This document shows positions 9,008 to 22,100 of a stretch of 33,987 nt of DNA, piece by piece. This DNA is from an uncultured Alteromonadaceae bacterium (GTDB taxonomy: Bacteria > Pseudomonadota > Gammaproteobacteria > Enterobacterales > Alteromonadaceae). Within the stretch, counting starts at the first letter, position 1, and every line of letters begins with the position of its first letter. Location: positions 1-33,987 of the forward strand of contig CATMRP010000035.1 in NCBI GenBank assembly GCA_950073835.1, in the 5' to 3' direction. The position numbers and the translations under genes are program-made. The notes below the pieces were generated by a model. It had not been told where the DNA came from. It saw only the letters and a program-made list of their open reading frames with translations, and did not search any database.

Positions 9008-10816
9008 GTGCTCACAGCTCAATCCCCCAACCCAGTAAAAATAGTCGCTTTATCGGTAATGATGGCGTGCTCGGCCATTGGTGTAACGGCTTGCTCTTCT
9101 ACCTCTTCGCCGTCAGCTACCCCCAGTGTGGTTCAGAATACCGCCGACAGCCGCTTTGCAGCATTGTATGAGGCGGAGTGGGCGTGGCGCCAGAATAAAG
9201 ACGCTACCGACGAGAACAGTCATACCACCAGCGCGCCGTCGAGCCTGCCGGATGTCAGCTTAGCTACCCAGAAAAACCGCCTTGCCCGATGGCAGGAGAC
9301 CCTGGCACAGCTCGACGCAATCGATGTAGAGGCGTTATCGGAAACCAATCAAATCAACTACGCGGTGTATCGCCTGCAAATTGAAAACCTGATTGCCGAC
9401 CAGCAGTTTAAAACCTACGAAAAGCCATTACTGGGTGATACGGCGTTCTGGAGCAACCTGGCCTATATCACCCGTGAAACCTTTCATAGCGAGCAGGATT
9501 TCGAGAATTACATTCAGTGGCTGCAAGACATGCCGCGCTATTTCGATCAGCAGATTGCCAATATGAAGCTTGGCCTGGCGCGTAAGTTTACGTTACCGAA
9601 GATTTCCTTACAGGGCCGCGATGCATCAGTGATCTCGGTTATCGAAGCGAAAGGCGCGGATAACATGTATTTCAAGCCGTTTAAGAAAATGCCTTCCCGC
9701 TTAAGCGAGGAAAAACAAGCGCAATTGCAGGCCAAAGCCAAAGCCGCAATCGCCGAGTATGTTATTCCGGCTCATCAGACATTGCTGACCTTTTTACAGG
9801 AAGACTACATTCCGAATGCTCAGCCTTCGATTGCCGGTTATGACCTGCCCGATGGCAAAGCTTATTATCAGGCGCAAATTAAGAAATATACCACGCTGGA
9901 TTTAAGCGCCGAGGAAATCCATCAGATTGGTTTGGATGAGGTCGCCAGGATCCGTCAACGCATGCACGAAGTAATGGTTGAGGTAGGTTTTGATGGCGAC
10001 TTGCAGGCCTTCTTAACCTTCCTGCGCACCGACGAACAGTTTTATGTTGATACTCCACAAGCACTGCTCGACCGCGCAGCCTGGACTGCCAAGGAATTTG
10101 ATGGCGTTGCAGACCAGTGGTTTGGTCACCTGCCCCGCAAACGCTTTGCCATTATTAAGGTCCCAGACGATATTGCGCCGTTTTATACCGCGGGCCGGGG
10201 CGGCCCGGGCACCTATTGGGTAAATACCTATGATTTACCCTCTCGTCCTCTGTACTCACTGCCGGCACTCACGCTACATGAATCTGCTCCGGGCCATGCG
10301 TTCCAGATGCCATTATCACTGGAAAACAACGCCATTCCAGAATTCCGCCGTAAGAGCTATATCTCGGCTTTCGGTGAAGGCTGGGCGCTGTACAGCGAGT
10401 TACTAGGGGAAGAAATGGGCCTTTACCATACCCCGTATGAGGTGTTTGGTATGCTTAGCTACCAGATGTGGCGAGCGGCTCGCTTAGTGGTTGATACCGG
10501 CATCCATGCCAAAGGCTGGACCCGTAAAGAGGCGCAGGACTTTATGAAAGAGAACACCGCGCTGTCGATTCATGAAATCACCACCGAAGTAGACCGCTAC
10601 ATTGCCTGGCCTGGACAGGCACTCTCCTATTATCTTGGTCAGATGGCGATTATTGAGTACCGCGCGCGAGCAGAAGAGGCTCTTGGTGAGCAATTCGATA
10701 TTCGCAACTTCCACGACATGATCCTGCAAATGGGCTCGGTTCCGTTGTCAGTTCTGGAAGAGCGAGTTGATAAGTTTATCGCCGAAGGCGGCCCATCGCC
10801 CTATAAAACAAAGTAA
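9008..10816 (+). CDS. DUF885 family metallopeptidase-like lipoprotein
   Basis: The 602-residue protein starts with GTG at 9008, with AGGAG 7 bp upstream. Residues 10-28 are a lipoprotein signal with lipobox VTAC (C29), so it is probably tethered in the envelope. The rest is a single DUF885 domain. Its hallmark HESAPGH (H424, E425, H430), the family's HExxxGH metal site, is followed by AFGEGWALYSELLG near 454-467, which should supply the third ligand. Family members are zinc carboxypeptidase-like enzymes related to M32/M3 folds. It is divergent from the M24 peptidase, so both may serve peptide catabolism. The low-complexity Ser/Thr stretch after the lipid Cys is a linker. Confidence 0.88.
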   Translation: MLTAQSPNPVKIVALSVMMACSAIGVTACSSTSSPSATPSVVQNTADSRFAALYEAEWAWRQNKDATDENSHTTSAPSSLPDVSLATQKNRLARWQETLAQLDAIDVEALSETNQINYAVYRLQIENLIADQQFKTYEKPLLGDTAFWSNLAYITRETFHSEQDFENYIQWLQDMPRYFDQQIANMKLGLARKFTLPKISLQGRDASVISVIEAKGADNMYFKPFKKMPSRLSEEKQAQLQAKAKAAIAEYVIPAHQTLLTFLQEDYIPNAQPSIAGYDLPDGKAYYQAQIKKYTTLDLSAEEIHQIGLDEVARIRQRMHEVMVEVGFDGDLQAFLTFLRTDEQFYVDTPQALLDRAAWTAKEFDGVADQWFGHLPRKRFAIIKVPDDIAPFYTAGRGGPGTYWVNTYDLPSRPLYSLPALTLHESAPGHAFQMPLSLENNAIPEFRRKSYISAFGEGWALYSELLGEEMGLYHTPYEVFGMLSYQMWRAARLVVDTGIHAKGWTRKEAQDFMKENTALSIHEITTEVDRYIAWPGQALSYYLGQMAIIEYRARAEEALGEQFDIRNFHDMILQMGSVPLSVLEERVDKFIAEGGPSPYKTK

Positions 10817-15764: not shown

Positions 15765-16847
15765 TTAATCCAGATATTGTGCTTTTAAACGGGCGATATC
15801 TGTGTCACTCACATTCAGTTCTTCTCTGATAAAGGCATCAATAGAACCTGATTGGGTTTCCATTTCAGTGAATGCGGCATTGAGATAGCTCTCGCGGGTG
15901 CCCATCAGCGCACCAATGGCTTCTTTAGGCAGCCGGGCCAGCATGGCCATTGAGGCATCTTGCTTGTGCTCCTTGCCTCGCTCCTGATGGCCGCCCATTA
16001 AATCAGCCGGGCGCAGGATTTGTTCTGACAGCACGTAATCCTGCATGATTACGTCTTTTTCTACGCCCAGCGCATAAAGGATAAGTGCAGCAGCAACACC
16101 GGTTCTGTCTTTACCAGCGGTGCAATGGAACAACAGTGGTTTATCATCAGCAACCAATTCGGCAAACATGGCTTTGTAGTGGTTTTTTTGCTGATTCAGT
16201 AATCCCGGATACATACCGGCCATCACCTGCTCCATGTCTTGTTCGGTAACCCGGCCTTCAGCAAACATTTGTTTAAAGGCTGAGCTATCAAAGTCCAGTT
16301 GGTAGTCCCAGGTCATATGATTAATGTCTCCGGCCTGCCATTGCGTGAGTTCATTCTGGCGCTCGCTGTTACCGCGAAAATCTACCACGGTTTCAATATC
16401 CAGTTCACTTAACATGGCGTAATCGGCAGCATCAAGATTATGCAGAGCCCCCGAGCGATAAAGCTTGCCCCACTTAACCCGGCGTCCGTCAGCGGTTTCA
16501 TAGCCGCCCAGATCGCGAAAGTTACGGCCGCCATTGAGGTTAAGTAACCGTGAACGTACTTGGGTTTGCTCACCCTGCTGCTCGGTAAAGGTAAACGTAT
16601 AACGGTCCTGAGTCGGCGCCATCCACTGCAGTGAGGCCACACCATTGTTCAGCTTATCTGAAATTAAAATCGTTTTATCACTTCGTTCGCCCTGTGCGGT
16701 CACCGAAACGGATTTAGCCGACTGCCAGTTTAAAACATAGTGACCGCTATCCCGGTCAACAGTGACTTCTGCATTCAGCGCCAGGGCATTAAAACTCATG
16801 GTTAATGCGGCGGTTACAACAGATATTACTCCAGTAAATTTCTTCAT
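15765..16847 (-). CDS. Secreted tyrosine-phosphatase-like protein (Y_phosphatase3/IphP type)
   Basis: The 360-residue protein has a signal peptide (1-23), a beta-sandwich-like region (about 25-105) and a Y_phosphatase3 domain (about 105-345). The domain opens with NGGRNFRDLGGYETADGR, typical of this family, and carries the P-loop HCTAGKDRTG with catalytic C242 and R248. Such enzymes hydrolyse phosphotyrosine, phosphoinositides or other organic phosphates through a phosphocysteine intermediate. Exported to the periplasm, it more likely releases phosphate from an imported ester than signals. It is the last gene of the unit, 55 bp after the TonB receptor, whose promoter region has a Pho-box-like site, which supports a nutritional role. 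GGAG stands 7 bp before the ATG. Confidence 0.85.
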   Translation of the reverse strand: MKKFTGVISVVTAALTMSFNALALNAEVTVDRDSGHYVLNWQSAKSVSVTAQGERSDKTILISDKLNNGVASLQWMAPTQDRYTFTFTEQQGEQTQVRSRLLNLNGGRNFRDLGGYETADGRRVKWGKLYRSGALHNLDAADYAMLSELDIETVVDFRGNSERQNELTQWQAGDINHMTWDYQLDFDSSAFKQMFAEGRVTEQDMEQVMAGMYPGLLNQQKNHYKAMFAELVADDKPLLFHCTAGKDRTGVAAALILYALGVEKDVIMQDYVLSEQILRPADLMGGHQERGKEHKQDASMAMLARLPKEAIGALMGTRESYLNAAFTEMETQSGSIDAFIREELNVSDTDIARLKAQYLD

Positions 16848-16902: not shown

Positions 16903-19437
16903 TTAGTAGCTCAGGCGTAAGCCAACTAAGAAACGACGGCCATAACTTTCAGACTGATTCACCGTGTTGTTACCGGCATAACGTAAATCCGTTTCATCGG
17001 TGAGGTTGTTGGCATTAAAATAGAGTGTGGCCGATACCGGGCCGGTGAGATCTTCGGGCAGAATGTATTGCACATTGAAATCCAGACGACTTTGCTCCCC
17101 CCAGTATTCACTTGGATCTTCAATAGGTGAGATCCATTCGTCGCGATACTGGTAGTTCAGCCGGGCAGATAAGCCATAATCTTCATAAAACAACGAGGCG
17201 TTATAAATAAGATCAGACGTGCCGGGTAAATCCAGCGTATCGCCCTGAATAGTCTGAAATTCTGATTCAACGAAGGTAGCGTTAACGCTAATTCCCCAGC
17301 CCATCAGCGCCGGTACAAAATCTTCGGCCATGGCAATCAGATTCAGCTCGATACCGGTTATTTTTCCGTCGGAGCCGTTTACCGGACCGGAAAGCTCCCA
17401 GGTTTCGCCAGCTTGACCGCCGTAGATAGCGCCATCAACGTTTTGCACGTCGGTGTAGATGACGTTATCAACAAAACGGCTGAATACCGATGCAGAGGCT
17501 ATACTGGCCGGTGCAAAGTAATATTCCAGCGTCCCATCCAGACCATAAGACTCTTCGGCTTCCAGTGACGGGTTACCGCCGCTAACCGTGGCGGGTGTTG
17601 TGGTTGGGTTAATACTCGCGGCCGCACGCCATTCCTGATAGTTCGGTCGGTTTACGCCAGTTGAGAACGACAGTCGGGCAATGGTGTTTTCATTGATATT
17701 GTAGTTTAAGTGTGCACTCGGCAATACGTTGATAAAGTCATCACTGTAGTCCACCGGGTTTTGCTCACCGGTTTCACTGTCGATAAGGGTACCAACAGAG
17801 GAGTAATCCGTTTGTTCTACACGTACGCCATATACAACGTTACCCCAGTTAAACTGCGAGTCCATCATGGCATACACTGCCGTGATGTCTTCTTCAATGT
17901 GGGTACGCTCATCGGCCGATGCTGCCGGGAATAACTCGGCCCCCGAGGCTTCCCAGGCTGCACGCAAACCGGTATTGTCCCAGTAGTTGGCATTAATGCT
18001 ATTGGAAGTATTGGATTCCCAGCGTTGGTTAGTCAGAAAGCTGTTTACATCCAGGGAGGTTCCACCGAAAGCCGGGATAAAAGCCAACACGTCAAATTCT
18101 ACCAGGTTCTCGCCTTTTGCTTCGCGCTGATTATATTCGCCGCCTATGGATAGTGTTGAAGGTAACCCCAGGAACGACATATCCTTACTGGCATCCAGCT
18201 TGATTTTATCCGCATCAACGTTCAGCGGTGAATTGATCTTATAAGCATAGGTTGAAGTGGGCCCATAGACGATTTCATCGACAGGCGTTGCCGACGTAAT
18301 GATAGGATCTTCAATGTTAGTAATATCCAAGTCGACCAGGTGAATATCAGCTTCATAACCGTTCAGAAAATCTAATCCCGACTGGTAAATGATGGGCAGT
18401 TGCGATGCAAATTCGGTGGCAGTGAAATTATAGCGTAGCGCCACATCCCAGCCCGCTATCAGAAAGTCACTACCCAGTGTGGTGGTTTGCGTTGAGTTGC
18501 TGTACTCACCGTCTTGTAACAGCCGATTAATGTAAACCGGTGCATTTTCTACTACCGGCCCCACCGGCGAAGTAGCAAAGTTAAACACGTACTGATTTCG
18601 CTGCTCTAAATCGGTAAATTCAGAATACAGGCTAGACACAAAGAACCGCGTGCCATTGCCCGAACGATACTCAAGTCGGCCACCGTAGGCTTCATCTTCA
18701 CGGGTTATTTTATAACTGCGCATATCAATGCTGTTAACCGCGCCATCTGCAGTTAAATCATATTCGCGGTTATCGGTAATCTGCTGACGGCTGTTTTTTG
18801 AATAAAACGCCATGATGCCGAAGTGGTCGTTAGAAAAAGACAAACGTGAGCCCAGCTTCTCCACGTCGCCGCCACCCAATTGTTGCTCGCCCATGCCCAC
18901 ATCAAGGTCGGCTGTAAAGCCTTCACGGTCGAACGGGTTAAAGGTTTCGATATTGACGTACCCGGCCACGGCCTCACCGGTCATTGACGGCAGTACGGCT
19001 TTATTTACCTCAATGCGACGGGTAATCACCGATGGAAACGAGTCAAAGCGTGGGATTCGGCCATTTTCAGCACCCGGTACATCTATGCCATCAAAGCCAA
19101 TAGCCGTGTAACGAAAAGGCATGCCCCTGAAGTTGATATAACGTGCCTGCCCCTGATCCCGTTCGATGGCCAGGCCGGGCACCCGACCAAGCGAGTCCGC
19201 CAGGTTTTGATCAGGAAAACGGCCAATGGTATCGGCAGCAATGACTTCCATCACATTGGATGCCACACGCTTGGCTTCGATAGCCGCCGTTTGGCTGTCT
19301 TTAATGGGTGAGGCTAATGCAACGACCTCTTCGATTTGCTGACTATCATCCTGGCTCATCTGCTGAGCATCTGACGAGGGTACAAAAAGGCCCAGTGCGG
19401 CCATTACCGAGACGGTAAGATAACAACGTGGTTGCAT
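16903..19437 (-). CDS. TonB-dependent receptor (TonB-Xanth-Caul/TIGR01782-like)
   Basis: This is an outer-membrane active importer of about 844 residues. A signal peptide ends near SDAQQ. The plug shows the subfamily pattern IGRFPDQNLADSLGRVPGLAIERD, then YINFRGM and TAIGFDGIDVPG. A barrel of over 600 residues follows, ending RFLVGLRLSY with a C-terminal aromatic. I chose the ATG at 19437, which has GGAG 6 bp upstream; a longer frame exists from TTG at 19449. TIGR01782 receptors usually import complex organic nutrients. Here the gene has an upstream Pho-box-like site and is followed 55 bp later by an exported phosphatase. An organophosphate ligand is a reasonable inference. It lies 125 bp downstream of the membrane winged-helix-like gene on the same strand. 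Confidence 0.92.
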   Translation of the reverse strand: MQPRCYLTVSVMAALGLFVPSSDAQQMSQDDSQQIEEVVALASPIKDSQTAAIEAKRVASNVMEVIAADTIGRFPDQNLADSLGRVPGLAIERDQGQARYINFRGMPFRYTAIGFDGIDVPGAENGRIPRFDSFPSVITRRIEVNKAVLPSMTGEAVAGYVNIETFNPFDREGFTADLDVGMGEQQLGGGDVEKLGSRLSFSNDHFGIMAFYSKNSRQQITDNREYDLTADGAVNSIDMRSYKITREDEAYGGRLEYRSGNGTRFFVSSLYSEFTDLEQRNQYVFNFATSPVGPVVENAPVYINRLLQDGEYSNSTQTTTLGSDFLIAGWDVALRYNFTATEFASQLPIIYQSGLDFLNGYEADIHLVDLDITNIEDPIITSATPVDEIVYGPTSTYAYKINSPLNVDADKIKLDASKDMSFLGLPSTLSIGGEYNQREAKGENLVEFDVLAFIPAFGGTSLDVNSFLTNQRWESNTSNSINANYWDNTGLRAAWEASGAELFPAASADERTHIEEDITAVYAMMDSQFNWGNVVYGVRVEQTDYSSVGTLIDSETGEQNPVDYSDDFINVLPSAHLNYNINENTIARLSFSTGVNRPNYQEWRAAASINPTTTPATVSGGNPSLEAEESYGLDGTLEYYFAPASIASASVFSRFVDNVIYTDVQNVDGAIYGGQAGETWELSGPVNGSDGKITGIELNLIAMAEDFVPALMGWGISVNATFVESEFQTIQGDTLDLPGTSDLIYNASLFYEDYGLSARLNYQYRDEWISPIEDPSEYWGEQSRLDFNVQYILPEDLTGPVSATLYFNANNLTDETDLRYAGNNTVNQSESYGRRFLVGLRLSY

Positions 19438-19469
19438 GAAATTCTCCAACGCATAATAAAGTTGCGGCG

Positions 19470-19503
19470 AGTCTGCAAAACCTCAATGACAACCATGTGA
19501 CAG
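19470..19503 (-). promoter_or_regulatory. Pho-box-like site upstream of the TonB receptor gene
   Basis: On the minus strand, CTGTCACATGGTTGTCAT (19486-19503) is two direct half-sites, CTGTCAC and TTGTCAT, 11 bp apart. It matches the Pho-box consensus CTGTCATAWAWCTGTCAY at 14 of 18 positions. The hexamer 10 bp downstream is CAGACT (19470-19475), a poor -10 (3 of 6), which is the weak point. The box is about 50 bp upstream of the start codon. Confidence 0.6.
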
Positions 19504-19522
19504 GGATATCTGAAACTAAAAT

Positions 19523-19532
19523 GAGATATCTC
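19523..19532. promoter_or_regulatory. 10-bp palindrome upstream of the Pho-box-like site
   Basis: GAGATATCTC is a perfect palindrome 20 bp upstream of the Pho-box-like site, and GATATC recurs at 19505-19510. It could be a second operator in the receptor promoter. The tract is AT-rich, so chance is possible. Confidence 0.25.
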
Positions 19533-19562
19533 TAAAATTGAAAAACACTTATATTCAATGAG

Positions 19563-20738
19563 TTATATTATTTTAAATTTTTCTTTCGGCGCTTGAATCC
19601 GATACAGATAGCGCAGTGACGTTTGCTCTCTTTGCCCTTCAAATAAGAAAGGTGAGGCCAATTCTTCGCCTAAAGCAGCTATCATTTCGTCTTTAATTTT
19701 ATTGCGATTCTGGTCTAACTTTTTAGCGGTCAGTCCGTTGCGGGCGAGATCGTTGATGGCCTTTCCATGGCCACCATATTGCTCCATTAAGTCAATCAGT
19801 TCTGCGGCCAGTTCGTGATCAGCTTTTGTCGTAATAGGGTTAAGCACCCAGCCGTCTTCACACTGCATACGCTTTTGCGCGTACCACAGGTAGTAGTAAT
19901 AAGGCGTAGCCGTTAGCTTAATTTCGATGCCTTTAATAGTAAGCAGCTGGTTTGCAGCATCAAAACACAATTGTTCAGGTAAGCGAAATGCATTGTGGAA
20001 TGCTTGTTCTTCATCTTTAAAGCGGGTAAACAGCAAGCCGAGCCAGGCCAATTCCCGTTGGGTTAGATGATTCAGTTGGAAACGCTTTACTAACACCAGC
20101 CATTGACTGTGTGCAAATCCAGCTAAGGGGGGATAACCAATGAGGGTTTCGATTATGTCCCTCACCTGTTCATTGGCAACAGCAACTTCCCTGGCTTCTT
20201 CACGCGTTAACCCTAATCGCTGCCAGTAAGTGATCCGGGCTGCCAGCCGTTGGCACACTGGCGCGGGGATATATTGCAGCACAACGAACAGGATCACCGC
20301 TAGTAAAAACTGGCTCCCTGCTAAAGTACTCCAGCGAATACTGCAATCCAGTGCACCGCTGTAACTTAAGTGATGGTAGGGATCATCCAGTGATAAACGA
20401 AAAAACAGTAATTGACGCCAGTGCTCAGTATTACTTAATGGCGCGGTAGCGGCTAAATTAGTCACCTGGCACTGGCCAAGTACCGTCAGCGGACTTTGCG
20501 GCCGCACCTGCTCAAGGGCATGGCGGATTTTAGCCACAATAAAGCCGACCGCTTCATCATCCATGTTGCCGGAGTAGATTTTATTCGGCGTCAGCGAATC
20601 ATAAGTCACACCGTAGTGTTCCTTAATGGAAGTTAATAGTGTCCATTTCGACCAGGCCAGCGACACCATACACAACATTAAGCCGGTCAGAATCACCCCA
20701 ATGAGCTGCTTGGTAGTCAATCGTTTCATTACTGACAT
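19563..20738 (-). CDS. Membrane-anchored protein with cytoplasmic winged-helix-like C-terminus
   Basis: I do not recognise this 391-residue protein as a named family. Two hydrophobic helices (about 12-29 and 138-157) enclose a periplasmic region of about 105 residues with C90 and C132. The remainder (158-391) should be cytoplasmic. Residues about 254-382 resemble an OmpR/PhoB winged helix: an N-terminal beta-hairpin (LCFDAANQLLTIKGIEIKL), the helical YYYYLWYAQKR, and a C-terminal helix LDQNRNKIKDEMIAALG leading to a wing ending RYLYRI. This would be a ToxR-like one-component regulator with reversed domain order. It follows the binding-protein-like gene, with a 10-bp overlap, or TAATG stop-start sharing if it starts at the ATG at 20729. 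The fold is inferred, not demonstrated. Confidence 0.6.
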   Translation of the reverse strand: MSVMKRLTTKQLIGVILTGLMLCMVSLAWSKWTLLTSIKEHYGVTYDSLTPNKIYSGNMDDEAVGFIVAKIRHALEQVRPQSPLTVLGQCQVTNLAATAPLSNTEHWRQLLFFRLSLDDPYHHLSYSGALDCSIRWSTLAGSQFLLAVILFVVLQYIPAPVCQRLAARITYWQRLGLTREEAREVAVANEQVRDIIETLIGYPPLAGFAHSQWLVLVKRFQLNHLTQRELAWLGLLFTRFKDEEQAFHNAFRLPEQLCFDAANQLLTIKGIEIKLTATPYYYYLWYAQKRMQCEDGWVLNPITTKADHELAAELIDLMEQYGGHGKAINDLARNGLTAKKLDQNRNKIKDEMIAALGEELASPFLFEGQREQTSLRYLYRIQAPKEKFKII

Positions 20739-21550
20739 CCCGACTGCGACGTCTCAACCGAGATTAAGTTTAGGATCCTGGTTAAATACTCAACTATGGG
20801 ACTCAGCGCGTCGGCCAGTTCACACCGAACCTTATCGGGAAGGTCATTGGTTACAAACAGGGTGGCGCTATTCCGATCGGTAATTTTAACACTGTGCAGC
20901 CCATCCTCCCTGCCGTTACGAAACACAGCTATGGTACTGATCATATCGACTTCGCGATTGTCAAAGGCTTCGTACAACGAGTAATTATCAGCATAATAAT
21001 GTATATCAAGGTCATCTATATTACTGGAACGCGCCTTTAAATCCTGTAACGGCAACAAGTAGTGTGTGTGACTCAGGTTATCTTCTACCAGGCCAATGCG
21101 CTGGTTAGCCAGTGTAGAAAAGTCGATAGCCTGATGGCTAAACCAGAACACTGAAAACCCATCAAAGGAAATAATCGGCGAGTAGAGCAGCGAAAAATGC
21201 GGTACCAGCCCTTTCAGGCTGTGCTCGCGCCCCATAATCACCTCAAAATCCTGATTCAGAATATTTACCGCCGTCACGGTTTCGCGGGGTTGCCATGACA
21301 AACGCACGCTACCGTAGTGTTGTTGTATTACCGGTGAGTTACACAGTGACCCGGTGATCTTATGAGCCTCGATAGGCATGTAGACCTGTATGCTAAGTTG
21401 CGATGTTAACCCTGATCCGGTTTGGCACTGCACCTCATTGAGTGGGCCTATTTGTAAAGGTGATGTCTGATGGCGGGTTAGCAACAGGTCAGCCGCCACC
21501 GTTCCGATAACACAACAGCAAATTATCAAGACATAGTGAAAGCGCGACAT
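20729..21550 (-). CDS. Periplasmic binding-protein-like (PhnD/PstS-type fold) protein
   Basis: The 273-residue protein has one N-terminal hydrophobic segment (5-22, with CCC at 11-13), serving as signal or anchor. The body looks like a type 2 periplasmic binding protein of the PhnD/phosphate class. DFSTLANQRIGLVEDNLSHTHYLLPL (143-168) resembles the strand-helix that grips the ligand. DNYSLYEAFDNREVDMIST (188-206) matches the usual final lobe motif in which a helix with xxGxVDA is followed by a strand. Cysteines at about 42, 70, 223 and 272 could form disulfides. No ABC permease or ATPase is nearby. Tight coupling to the membrane winged-helix-like gene suggests a sensor subunit, not a transporter component. 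A Pho-box-like promoter precedes it. Confidence 0.6.
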   Translation of the reverse strand: MSRFHYVLIICCCVIGTVAADLLLTRHQTSPLQIGPLNEVQCQTGSGLTSQLSIQVYMPIEAHKITGSLCNSPVIQQHYGSVRLSWQPRETVTAVNILNQDFEVIMGREHSLKGLVPHFSLLYSPIISFDGFSVFWFSHQAIDFSTLANQRIGLVEDNLSHTHYLLPLQDLKARSSNIDDLDIHYYADNYSLYEAFDNREVDMISTIAVFRNGREDGLHSVKITDRNSATLFVTNDLPDKVRCELADALSPIVEYLTRILNLISVETSQSGCQ

Positions 21551-21580: not shown

Positions 21581-21614
21581 AGTTTATGATGATTAGGTGA
21601 CAACTTTGTGACTG
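21581..21614 (-). promoter_or_regulatory. Pho box and -10 of the binding-protein-like/winged-helix-like operon
   Basis: On the minus strand, CAGTCACAAAGTTGTCAC (21597-21614) differs from the E. coli phoA Pho box, as I recall it, at only 2 of 18 positions. Its two half-sites are 11 bp apart. Exactly 10 bp downstream lies TAAACT (21581-21586), a 4-of-6 match to the -10, about 30 bp before the start codon. This is the layout of a PhoB-activated promoter. Confidence 0.7.
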
Positions 21615-21647: not shown

Positions 21648-21737
21648 TGATCGCACGATGTCAGGCTATTTTTACTGGCCTTGTGCCGCGACTTTTGTAC
21701 AATCACGTCAACTGATATCCAGGCTAAGACTAAATTA

Positions 21738-22100
21738 ATGAAAATCCACCGTATTACCCCCACCCAGCGTTGGTCAGACATCACCGTTTTTAACGGCATT
21801 GCCAACTTTGTTGAAGTACCTGAAACAGACCAAGTTCTGGAAATTGAAGGTCAGGTCAGCGCTATTTTTGCCCAGGCAGAGGCTTCTCTGGCTTTGATCG
21901 ACAGCGATAAGTCGCGCATTCTGAGTGTGACGATATACATTACCGATTTTAGCCTGGTCGACCGCCTGAATGCCGTGTGGGATGCCTGGTTCGATGAGGG
22001 CACAGCACCAAGCCGCGCGTGCGTGAAAGTAGAACTGGCCGACCCGGACTGGCTGCTGGAAATGGCCTTTACCGTGGCTGCGGGCGAAGCCTATTTATAA
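21738..22100 (+). CDS. RidA/YjgF family protein
   Basis: The 120-residue protein has the RidA (YjgF/YER057c/UK114) fold. Motifs include VSAIFAQAEASLALIDSDKSRILSVTIYITD in the middle and APSRACVKVEL with the arginine that binds the substrate carboxylate. A glutamate-bearing LLEMAFTVAA strand ends the fold. RidA enzymes hydrolyse reactive enamine/imine intermediates; the SRACV context and LEMAF variation place it outside canonical RidA, so activity is uncertain. The start is ATG at 21738, which matches the family N-terminus, although its ribosome-binding site is weak; a longer frame begins at 21681. It is divergent from the binding-protein-like operon and has no evident functional link to it. 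Confidence 0.85.
   Translation: MKIHRITPTQRWSDITVFNGIANFVEVPETDQVLEIEGQVSAIFAQAEASLALIDSDKSRILSVTIYITDFSLVDRLNAVWDAWFDEGTAPSRACVKVELADPDWLLEMAFTVAAGEAYL

Follow-up and report, generated by a model that had tools for sequence, protein, structure and literature searches.

A putative, previously undescribed sensor and membrane-bound gene switch within the bacterial phosphate-starvation response

A conserved gene pair and the phosphatase genes downstream

The window, by which we mean the whole 33,987-nucleotide stretch of Alteromonadaceae DNA that was analysed, carries on its minus strand two neighbouring open reading frames of 273 codons (20729-21550) and 391 codons (19563-20738). They overlap by 10 bp, and M4 of the 391-aa frame is an alternative possible start which, judging by the sequence, would create a TAATG overlap; the tight coupling claimed in the first-pass annotation is thus borne out. 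The first gene encodes a periplasmic binding protein with a type II fold and an N-terminal membrane anchor, a sensor candidate on the basis of its structure model, Foldseek matches and pairing. The second encodes a putative regulator which comprises a first transmembrane segment (TM1), a periplasmic domain, a second segment (TM2), a cytoplasmic helical region (residues 163-251) and a predicted C-terminal winged helix (257-390). Directly downstream of the regulator gene, also on the minus strand, are the genes of a TonB-dependent receptor of the TIGR01782 family (16903-19449; translation probably begins four codons further in, at an ATG, by comparison with L008) and of a tyrosine-phosphatase-like enzyme (PF13350, Y_phosphatase3; 15765-16847) with an intact HCTAGKDRTG motif and a signal sequence recognised by eye. 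Both are presumed target genes.

The comparison covers 25 distinct gammaproteobacterial loci. Duplicates were counted once (L037 is L018, L089 is L013, and L002/L005 and L003/L006 are L008 and L009), and two regulator-like matches were left out: L042, a CARF NE0113 protein that lacks a binding-protein gene, and the orphan fragment L050 of G409, 76 aa long. The binding-protein gene lies immediately 5' of the regulator gene in 24 loci; in the remaining locus, L039, only 162 bp of contig precede the regulator, too little to show the upstream gene. This order is kept across six named families, and the pair is a conserved unit. Among the 14 neighbourhoods compared, no gene family besides the pair itself is common to more than 7, so that no transporter accompanies the pair as a rule, in agreement with the earlier remark that no ABC permease or ATPase is found with it. 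With respect to a mobile-element origin, the regulator was compared with plasmids and phages, and no match reached E <= 1e-5; a fold search among viral proteins yielded nothing of use.

Secreted-phosphatase genes (the cargo) follow 3' of the regulator in all 25 loci, and they belong to three unrelated families and folds: SurE-type enzymes (15 loci), a TonB receptor with a tyrosine-phosphatase-like enzyme (8) and tandem alkaline phosphatases (2). Cargo was assigned with profiles built from the members, and four PF13350, one SurE and three alkaline phosphatase proteins were checked with Pfam. The first-pass annotation had proposed a phosphorus-containing ligand and, as a check, co-occurrence with TonB receptor and phosphatase genes. 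The three unrelated phosphatase folds strengthen the former idea; the latter is borne out, with phosphatase genes in all 25 loci and the receptor in the 8 named above. In the genus of the window, the phosphatase is present in exactly 3 of 59 genomes, the same 3 that carry the regulator; outside the genus, G083 has a 38%-identical phosphatase and the regulator is absent.

Predicted structures and sequence relationships of the two proteins

The 273-aa protein has a single hydrophobic segment, at its N-terminus, and its predicted structure is a two-lobe type II fold (pLDDT 82). PtxB, ArrX and XAC2383 are among its binding-protein matches in Foldseek (E 2e-7 to 5e-6), and these matches also include many amino-acid binding proteins, one of which is the top match. 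This favours the anchored protein of PhnD/PstS-like fold described at first. Sequence similarity is low: PF12974 is found at E <= 0.1 in 5 of 13 members (best 0.0017) with no match in the window protein, and the best PDB sequence match is XAC2383 at E 0.14. According to PMC5908839, the oxyanion site of AioX/PhnD contains Ser-x-Ser. It resembles Ser160-x-Thr162 of the window protein, with positions assigned by motif and not by superposition; Ser160 is kept in 24 of 24 binding proteins, as is Ser or Thr at position 162, and Arg89 and Arg108 are invariant. The oxyanion-binding His has no conserved counterpart among the 24. Considering the fold, the conserved Ser-x-Ser/Thr and the partner genes, the candidate ligand would be phosphate or an organophosphate.

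The same data bear on another reading, in which the binding-protein-like partner senses no ligand and instead helps the regulator to fold or to stay stable, while the regulator would answer to something else. ToxS does this for ToxR. The strict pairing in all 24 readable loci would suit a structural partner equally well, and the low similarity to phosphonate-binding proteins and the lost ligand His agree with it; against this, Ser-x-Ser/Thr, both arginines and the two-lobe fold are all kept, and we regard a purely structural role as unlikely.

In the regulator, hydropathy places the hydrophobic segments at about residues 7-25 and 144-162, and the structure model has helices at 9-49 and 136-156. 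Two transmembrane helices around a periplasmic domain with two cysteines had been described before; for the window this holds, with Cys90 and Cys132 situated between the segments, but the cysteine pair is no general feature, as L013, L018, L043 and others are without it. The two expected segments are seen in 21 of 25 relatives, of which L016 has a third; L015, L019 and L045 have one, and in L017 the second is misplaced. No kinase or receiver domain is found in the regulator by Pfam.

The first-pass annotation had placed an OmpR/PhoB-like winged helix at residues 254-382 of the regulator. A winged-helix topology is indeed predicted at 257-390, with pLDDT of 86-97 per block of ten residues, and it fits the OmpR/PhoB fold (N-terminal beta sheet, three-helix core, C-terminal hairpin wing) apart from an extra helix at 308-320. 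Foldseek matches to OmpR-type domains are weak, with a best E of 0.33, and are interleaved with unrelated folds; BaeR, SaeR, AdeR, YycF and GlnR recur in the list, all at E > 0.3. The sequence family, on the other hand, did not stand. Trans_reg_C (PF00486) has no match in hmmscan of 13 regulator members, a PDB sequence search with the regulator gives no OmpR/PhoB-family match, and hhalign against 17 Trans_reg_C/OmpR-type domains of the same genome gives a probability of 0.2, a negative result; an eighteenth domain, L058, was excluded on account of its out-of-frame translation. Membership of the OmpR/PhoB sequence family is therefore rejected. The PDB search did return the ATP synthase b-subunit and PilA, both confined to the transmembrane and helical stretch and read as membrane or coiled-coil resemblance. 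Nor does the regulator belong to the ToxR/CadC family, since its putative winged helix is C-terminal and follows two transmembrane segments.

Profile comparison revealed kin elsewhere. At the level of sequence, the sole demonstrable kinship of the C-terminal domain is with the CRISPR-associated CARF NE0113 proteins: L042 was found using the pair-only alignment at E 7e-14, and hhalign of the domain against CARF NE0113 gives a probability of 97.8 and E 9e-13. There were 7 hits outside the pair, one of which, L085, corresponded to no ORF. Neither TIGR02584 nor PF09623 has a match in the regulator, which shows no N-terminal CARF domain, and the C-terminal domain alone is common to both. CARF NE0113 proteins have been predicted independently to regulate transcription (PMC4012209).

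A conserved palindrome and its spacing from Pho boxes

The gap between the regulator gene and the cargo contains a conserved palindrome with consensus TTTAGAGATATCTCTAAA, an operator candidate which in the window reads AGAGATATCTCA within TTTTAGAGATATCTCATTTT (19522-19533, minus strand). Of the 25 gaps, 24 have its core with at most 2 mismatches (Markov control mean 0.3) and all 25 with at most 3 (control mean 2.3). The palindrome was first spotted by eye and tested afterwards; the objection of after-the-fact choice is answered by ranking all 4,096 12-bp palindromes, among which this one comes first with a count of 24, and the next scores 18. At <=1 mismatch, the 14-mer TTTAGAGATATCTC occurs once in the 4.9-Mb genome, and so does its reversed control, which shows that other copies are absent but not that there is an excess. 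Two further 2-mismatch cores occur inside the window, at 10353 and 15881, and none at <=1 mismatch was found before the pair itself in 8,400 bp. The TonB receptor gene had been named as the possible target, and the palindrome before it supports this; the whole phosphatase operon, however, looks like the target.

Two 7-nt direct repeats with a 4-nt spacer, the arrangement of a Pho box, were found at both promoters of the window. The box CTGTCACATGGTTGTCAT (19486-19503, minus strand) precedes the TonB receptor gene, is an exact match and lies 24 bp from the palindrome centre, while CAGTCACAAAGTTGTCAC (21597-21614, minus strand) precedes the binding-protein gene with 1 mismatch. Not one of 100 shuffles of the window reaches two matches. 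Scored with hand-chosen weights on a Pho-box consensus, the boxes stay below 10.5 upstream of the binding-protein gene in 6 of 24 loci and in 8 of 25 regulator-cargo gaps. The distance from the palindrome centre to the best-scoring box of each gap, boxes below 10.5 included, is 24-26 bp in 22 of 25 loci. From the stop codon to the palindrome it ranges from 4 to 62 bp. An RNA terminator was rejected as the meaning of the palindrome by inspection, since it is not G+C-rich and no T run follows it in the window, and also because its spacing from the stop codon varies more than that from the Pho box. PhoB is present in the genome, where one of four exact Pho-box matches stands before the gene of a PhoX phosphatase. 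The circuit, too, seems to be controlled by PhoB.

Pho boxes usually adjoin the -10. With the main palindrome upstream of the box, the geometry is the one expected of co-activation, and this position suggests an activating sign. The sign cannot be read from sequence, and the regulator might conversely repress the phosphatase operon through the palindrome, with a ligand such as abundant phosphate keeping it on the DNA. A weaker second copy, TCAGATATCCCT (19502-19513, minus strand; 3 mismatches), lies exactly 20 bp further on in the window, and second copies 20 bp on are also present in L008, L013, L014, L019 and L041. Counting spacings of 20-22 bp at <=3 mismatches, L018 and L043 join these to give 8 of 25 loci, and in all 8 the second copy abuts or overlaps the Pho box, where a bound protein could block PhoB. 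Given the regular position of the main palindrome, we take repression to be unlikely. In L019, the pair stands between two cargo operons, and the palindrome and a box-like sequence (the second box by eye) precede both.

It is more doubtful still that an unrelated DNA-binding protein binds the palindrome and that the C-terminal domain of the regulator has another role, in protein contacts or with RNA. Pfam recognises no DNA-binding family in this domain, and the comparison with OmpR-type domains does not either. Yet the motif accompanies the pair in every locus at <=3 mismatches, no other gene family occurs in more than 7 of the 14 neighbourhoods, and PMC4012209, cited above, predicts that the CARF NE0113 proteins, which have the same domain, regulate transcription. 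The remaining possibility, ordinary neighbour genes that have no part in regulating the phosphatase operon, is negligible: a gene order kept across six families, three replaceable cargoes and one conserved palindrome speak against it, and the 25 loci reject a chance neighbourhood.

Proposed mechanism and comparison with known systems

We consider it probable that the pair is a two-gene, kinase-free transmembrane system that governs one adjacent secreted-phosphatase operon and is nested in the Pho regulon. Under phosphate starvation, PhoB would switch on the pair through the box before the binding-protein gene. The anchored binding protein would probe the periplasm for a ligand that bears phosphate, be it phosphate itself or an organophosphate usable by the phosphatase, and, as we infer from the strict pairing, convey its state to the regulator by way of the latter's periplasmic domain. 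From co-conservation we infer that the C-terminal winged helix binds the palindrome; there, 24 bp upstream of the second Pho box, the regulator would aid PhoB in activating the TonB receptor/phosphatase operon. The outcome would be a feed-forward AND gate of phosphorus hunger and the right substrate. We also lean towards a wider reading, an undescribed family of pairs in which a PhnD-type anchored sensor acts directly on a membrane-held activator that has a DNA-binding domain as in CARF proteins and its own palindromic operator. With PhoB 24-26 bp away an AND gate would result, by which marine bacteria would make a phosphatase only if they lack phosphorus and its substrate is at hand, and the enzyme would be exchangeable while the gate is kept.

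Transmembrane transcription regulators are already known, for example ChiS with its binding protein, and the pair would be a variant of these. ChiS derives from a hybrid sensor kinase. In Vibrio cholerae, the chitin-binding protein CBP is thought to activate ChiS, a membrane-retained DNA-binding regulator, by direct contact (PMC11856585). The likeness is a periplasmic binding protein paired with a membrane-retained regulator, whose DNA binding is presumptive in our case; here, by contrast, the regulator has neither a kinase nor a receiver domain in Pfam, its partner is a PhnD-like binding protein anchored in the membrane, and phosphatase operons are presumably what it controls. ToxR/ToxS, TcpP/TcpH and CadC share with the pair a membrane-tethered winged-helix regulator, as predicted here, and for ToxR and TcpP a small partner is encoded next door. 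ToxR/CadC-type regulators carry an N-terminal Trans_reg_C winged helix and then one transmembrane segment, whereas the winged helix predicted here is C-terminal after two such segments, with Trans_reg_C undetected. AioX/ArrX with AioS/ArrS, and other PhnD-like sensor binding proteins, use a PhnD-fold protein with a Ser-x-Ser oxyanion motif for sensing, not transport (PMC5908839), as is proposed for the pair. However, AioX acts through a histidine kinase and its response regulator, while the partner here is itself the putative DNA-binding protein, and His192 of AioX has no conserved counterpart in the binding proteins of the pair.

With the PhoR/PhoB Pho regulon the pair shares secreted phosphatases as presumed targets and Pho boxes at both window promoters; it is no homologue of PhoR/PhoB and would add a further layer of control, specific to one operon and with a palindrome of its own. 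Secreted phosphatases decide the recycling of organic phosphorus by marine bacteria. In textbooks PhoR/PhoB alone controls them, a system that senses hunger and not substrate. A dedicated sensor-switch atop PhoB, if true, would explain substrate-specific induction of phosphatases and would be a compact, kinase-free route from a binding protein to DNA. The finding supplies named proteins, an operator candidate and a promoter geometry, all open to direct testing. The CARF NE0113 proteins (TIGR02584/PF09623), which have the homologous C-terminal domain, combine it with a CARF domain at the N-terminus and are linked to CRISPR, while here it belongs to a membrane protein encoded in a phosphatase operon; the pair offers a lead on the role of this domain in them.

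The gene pair and its distribution

Both genes of the pair lie on the minus strand of the window, the binding-protein gene as an ORF of 273 aa (20729-21550) and the regulator gene as an ORF of 391 aa (19563-20738). Their overlap is 10 bp long, or TAATG if the fourth codon of the regulator is taken as its start. They are followed, on that strand, by genes for a TonB-dependent receptor (TIGR01782 in NCBIfam; 16903-19449) and for a tyrosine-phosphatase-like protein (PF13350 in Pfam; 15765-16847), in which the HCTAGKDRTG motif is intact and a signal sequence can be made out by eye. For the pair proteins of the window, Pfam gave no family at E <= 1 for either, while NCBIfam gave no match for the binding protein and a single chance-level entry (E 0.12) for the regulator. 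A Rid-family (PF01042) gene at 21681-22100 is divergent from the pair, with a Pho box in between.

The regulator was found in 4 of the 98 nearest genomes (own genome counted), in 7 of 394 genomes sampled from the order and in 8 of 99 genomes of one genus; in the class sample, the matches were in 2 of 369 genomes, namely its own and one that is not a true member. With a four-sequence alignment as query, the species-genome collection (84,980 genomes) yielded 12 loci, a lower bound since the scan runs on two short peptide patterns and thus misses divergent members. Plasmid and phage records contained no match to the window regulator at E <= 1e-5. After duplicates were removed, 25 distinct loci with a full regulator were obtained; families represented among the named carriers are Alteromonadaceae, Colwelliaceae, Pseudoalteromonadaceae, Vibrionaceae, Cellvibrionaceae and Spongiibacteraceae. 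The binding-protein gene is directly upstream of the regulator in 24 of these loci; for the remaining locus, L039, the contig stops 162 bp ahead of the regulator. The pair is a conserved unit.

The binding protein of L013 (L013:8532-9248) has 238 aa, fewer than its relatives, and its gene is separated from the regulator by 119 bp; it may be broken or misread. In the genome with the full pair L041, an orphan fragment of 76 aa from the C-terminal domain was also found (L050:8826-9056); it has no palindrome within 4 kb, its neighbouring genes do not match the cargo profiles, and it is probably a remnant.

Exchange of the phosphatase cargo

The genes downstream of the regulator, on the same strand, are a TonB receptor and a PF13350 phosphatase in 8 of the 25 loci, a SurE-type protein in 15 and two tandem alkaline phosphatases in 2. 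These types were assigned with profiles built from the loci themselves, and Pfam was checked on four PF13350 proteins (window, L010, L012, L019), one SurE (L014) and three alkaline phosphatases. By eye, most cargo proteins start with what resembles a signal sequence. Because the three cargo types require 3 and 2 changes on the trees of the two pair proteins (the minimum possible is 2), the phosphatase, of three unrelated kinds, has been exchanged while the pair was kept. In locus L019 (4551-11619), the pair is located between two cargo operons, with SurE downstream and a TonB receptor and phosphatase divergently upstream.

Of the 59 genomes in the genus of the window, 3 have the phosphatase (E <= 1e-30), and these are precisely the regulator carriers; the chance of this coincidence is about 3e-5 if the two are independent, a figure that ignores kinship. 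Outside the genus, a phosphatase of 38% identity occurs in genome G083, which lacks the regulator, and genome G072 has the regulator with SurE instead. In 14 of the 15 SurE loci (e.g. L014:4673-5317), the gene after SurE encodes a small protein, in most cases with a lipoprotein-like start; the two members of this group run against Pfam (L014, L016) had no family at E <= 0.01. The TonB receptor of L041 (L041:8177-9322) has 381 aa, is shorter than its relatives and may be broken or misread.

The palindrome and the Pho boxes

A palindrome with consensus TTTAGAGATATCTCTAAA, a candidate operator with its left arm more conserved than the right, sits in the gap between the regulator stop codon and the first cargo gene. 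Its 12-bp core is found in 16 of the 25 gaps at <=1 mismatch, in 24 at <=2 and in all 25 at <=3, compared with first-order Markov control averages of 0.015, 0.34 and 2.27. Of the 4,096 possible 12-bp palindromes the core has the highest count, 24 gaps against 18 for the runner-up, itself a near relative. Eight loci have a second, mostly weaker copy 20-22 bp further on, and in L012 an extra palindrome at <=1 mismatch turns out to lie in the gap proper after assignment of the start codon. With up to 2 mismatches allowed, the core is found 3 times in the window (0.44 expected); apart from the gap site, these are 2-mismatch matches at 10353 and 15881. The 14-mer TTTAGAGATATCTC has a single match at up to 1 mismatch in the whole genome, an exact one at the gap site; because its reversed control also occurs once, the count shows the absence of a second site rather than an excess.

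The Pho-box pattern YTGTCAYNNNNYTGTCAY, with at most 1 mismatch allowed in the window, matches twice: one match (19486-19503) precedes the TonB receptor gene and the other (21597-21614) the binding-protein gene; none of 100 window shuffles reached two matches. The two-heptamer layout of the Pho box and the CTGTCAT motif agree with published descriptions (PMC4415409). Exact matches number 4 in the genome (control 0), located in the window, before a PhoX phosphatase gene, before a 122-aa ORF and, for the fourth, too close to a contig end for assignment to a gene; PhoB is present in this genome. A Pho-box score >=10.5 was reached in 17 of the 25 gaps (Markov control 0.8; the other 8 below) and in 18 of the 24 regions upstream of the binding-protein gene (control 1.1; the other 6 below). 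From the palindrome centre to the best box the distance is 24-26 bp in 22 of 25 loci, whereas from the stop codon to the palindrome it varies from 4 to 62 bp. In L019, the divergent receptor gene is preceded by a palindrome with 2 mismatches and, about 25 bp on, a box-like sequence (by eye), so that palindrome and box-like sequence precede each of its two cargo operons.

Outside the gaps (494 kb of locus sequence), matches at <=1 mismatch lie only inside the regulator gene of four loci from one genus. These are exact copies of TTAGAGATATCTCTAA within the coding sequence (L039:477, L047:9791, L048:8519, L049:8838), about 250-315 bp from the regulator start, and are possibly an operator for autoregulation.

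The two proteins and a candidate mechanism

In the model of the binding protein (pLDDT 82), an N-terminal helix precedes a predicted type II binding fold. Among its Foldseek matches, at E 2e-7 and weaker, are PtxB (phosphite), ArrX and the ATP-bound XAC2383, and equally amino-acid binding proteins, one of which is the top match; TM-scores on the query are 0.35-0.53 among the 50 matches listed. The best PDB match by sequence is XAC2383 (E 0.14). Cys42, Cys70, Arg89, Arg108 and Ser160 are invariant in all 24 binding proteins, position 162 is Ser or Thr in all 24, and Asp157 is kept in 23. By motif, this D-x-x-S-x-S/T stretch corresponds to the Ser161/Ser163 oxyanion site described for AioX and PhnD (PMC5908839); for the His of this site, no conserved equivalent is seen among the 24.

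For the regulator, the model (pLDDT 86) predicts a long helix that runs through the first membrane segment, then a mixed periplasmic domain, and a second membrane helix joined by a helical linker to the C-terminal domain. This last domain is predicted to have three short strands, four helices (277-292, 308-320, 325-334 and 338-356) and a wing of two strands. OmpR/PhoB DNA-binding domains recur in Foldseek, none below E 0.3 and with unrelated folds interspersed, and sequence profiles do not support membership in the OmpR/PhoB family. The pair-only alignment A3 found L042 (8968-10185; E 7e-14), a CARF NE0113 protein (TIGR02584) beside Cas6 and a Card1-like gene. With an hhalign probability of 97.8 (E 9e-13), its C-terminal domain is, judged by sequence, homologous to that of the regulator; Pfam and NCBIfam models on L042 stop at about the start of this domain. 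A phylum sample of 398 genomes was searched with an alignment including L042, a choice that favours finding its kin, and 11 proteins matched. The pair accompanies 4 of them; among the other 7, 5 reach the TIGR02584 cut-off, L088 has a match that falls below it, and L085 is the remaining one. A review of CARF proteins predicted a role in transcription regulation for the NE0113 family (PMC4012209).

What the loci show is strict pairing, phosphatase cargo, a conserved palindrome and its steady spacing to a Pho-type box. In the mechanism that we propose, PhoB would drive the pair and the phosphatase operon, the anchored binding protein would read a phosphate-bearing ligand and pass its state to the regulator across the periplasm, and the C-terminal domain of the regulator would bind the palindrome and activate with PhoB. 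Because the main palindrome sits upstream, activation would be favoured, without being proved, over repression.

In the open-licence literature, the titles and abstract starts among the matches listed had nothing on this pair or its candidate operator, and the core string was found in one paper only, on pig pathogen detection. A word search of PMC10269533, which surveys transmembrane transcription regulators, found no occurrence of PhnD, phosphonate, SBP or solute binding. Functionally, the nearest described case is ChiS, a transmembrane regulator whose activation is thought to occur through direct contact with the chitin-binding protein (PMC11856585).
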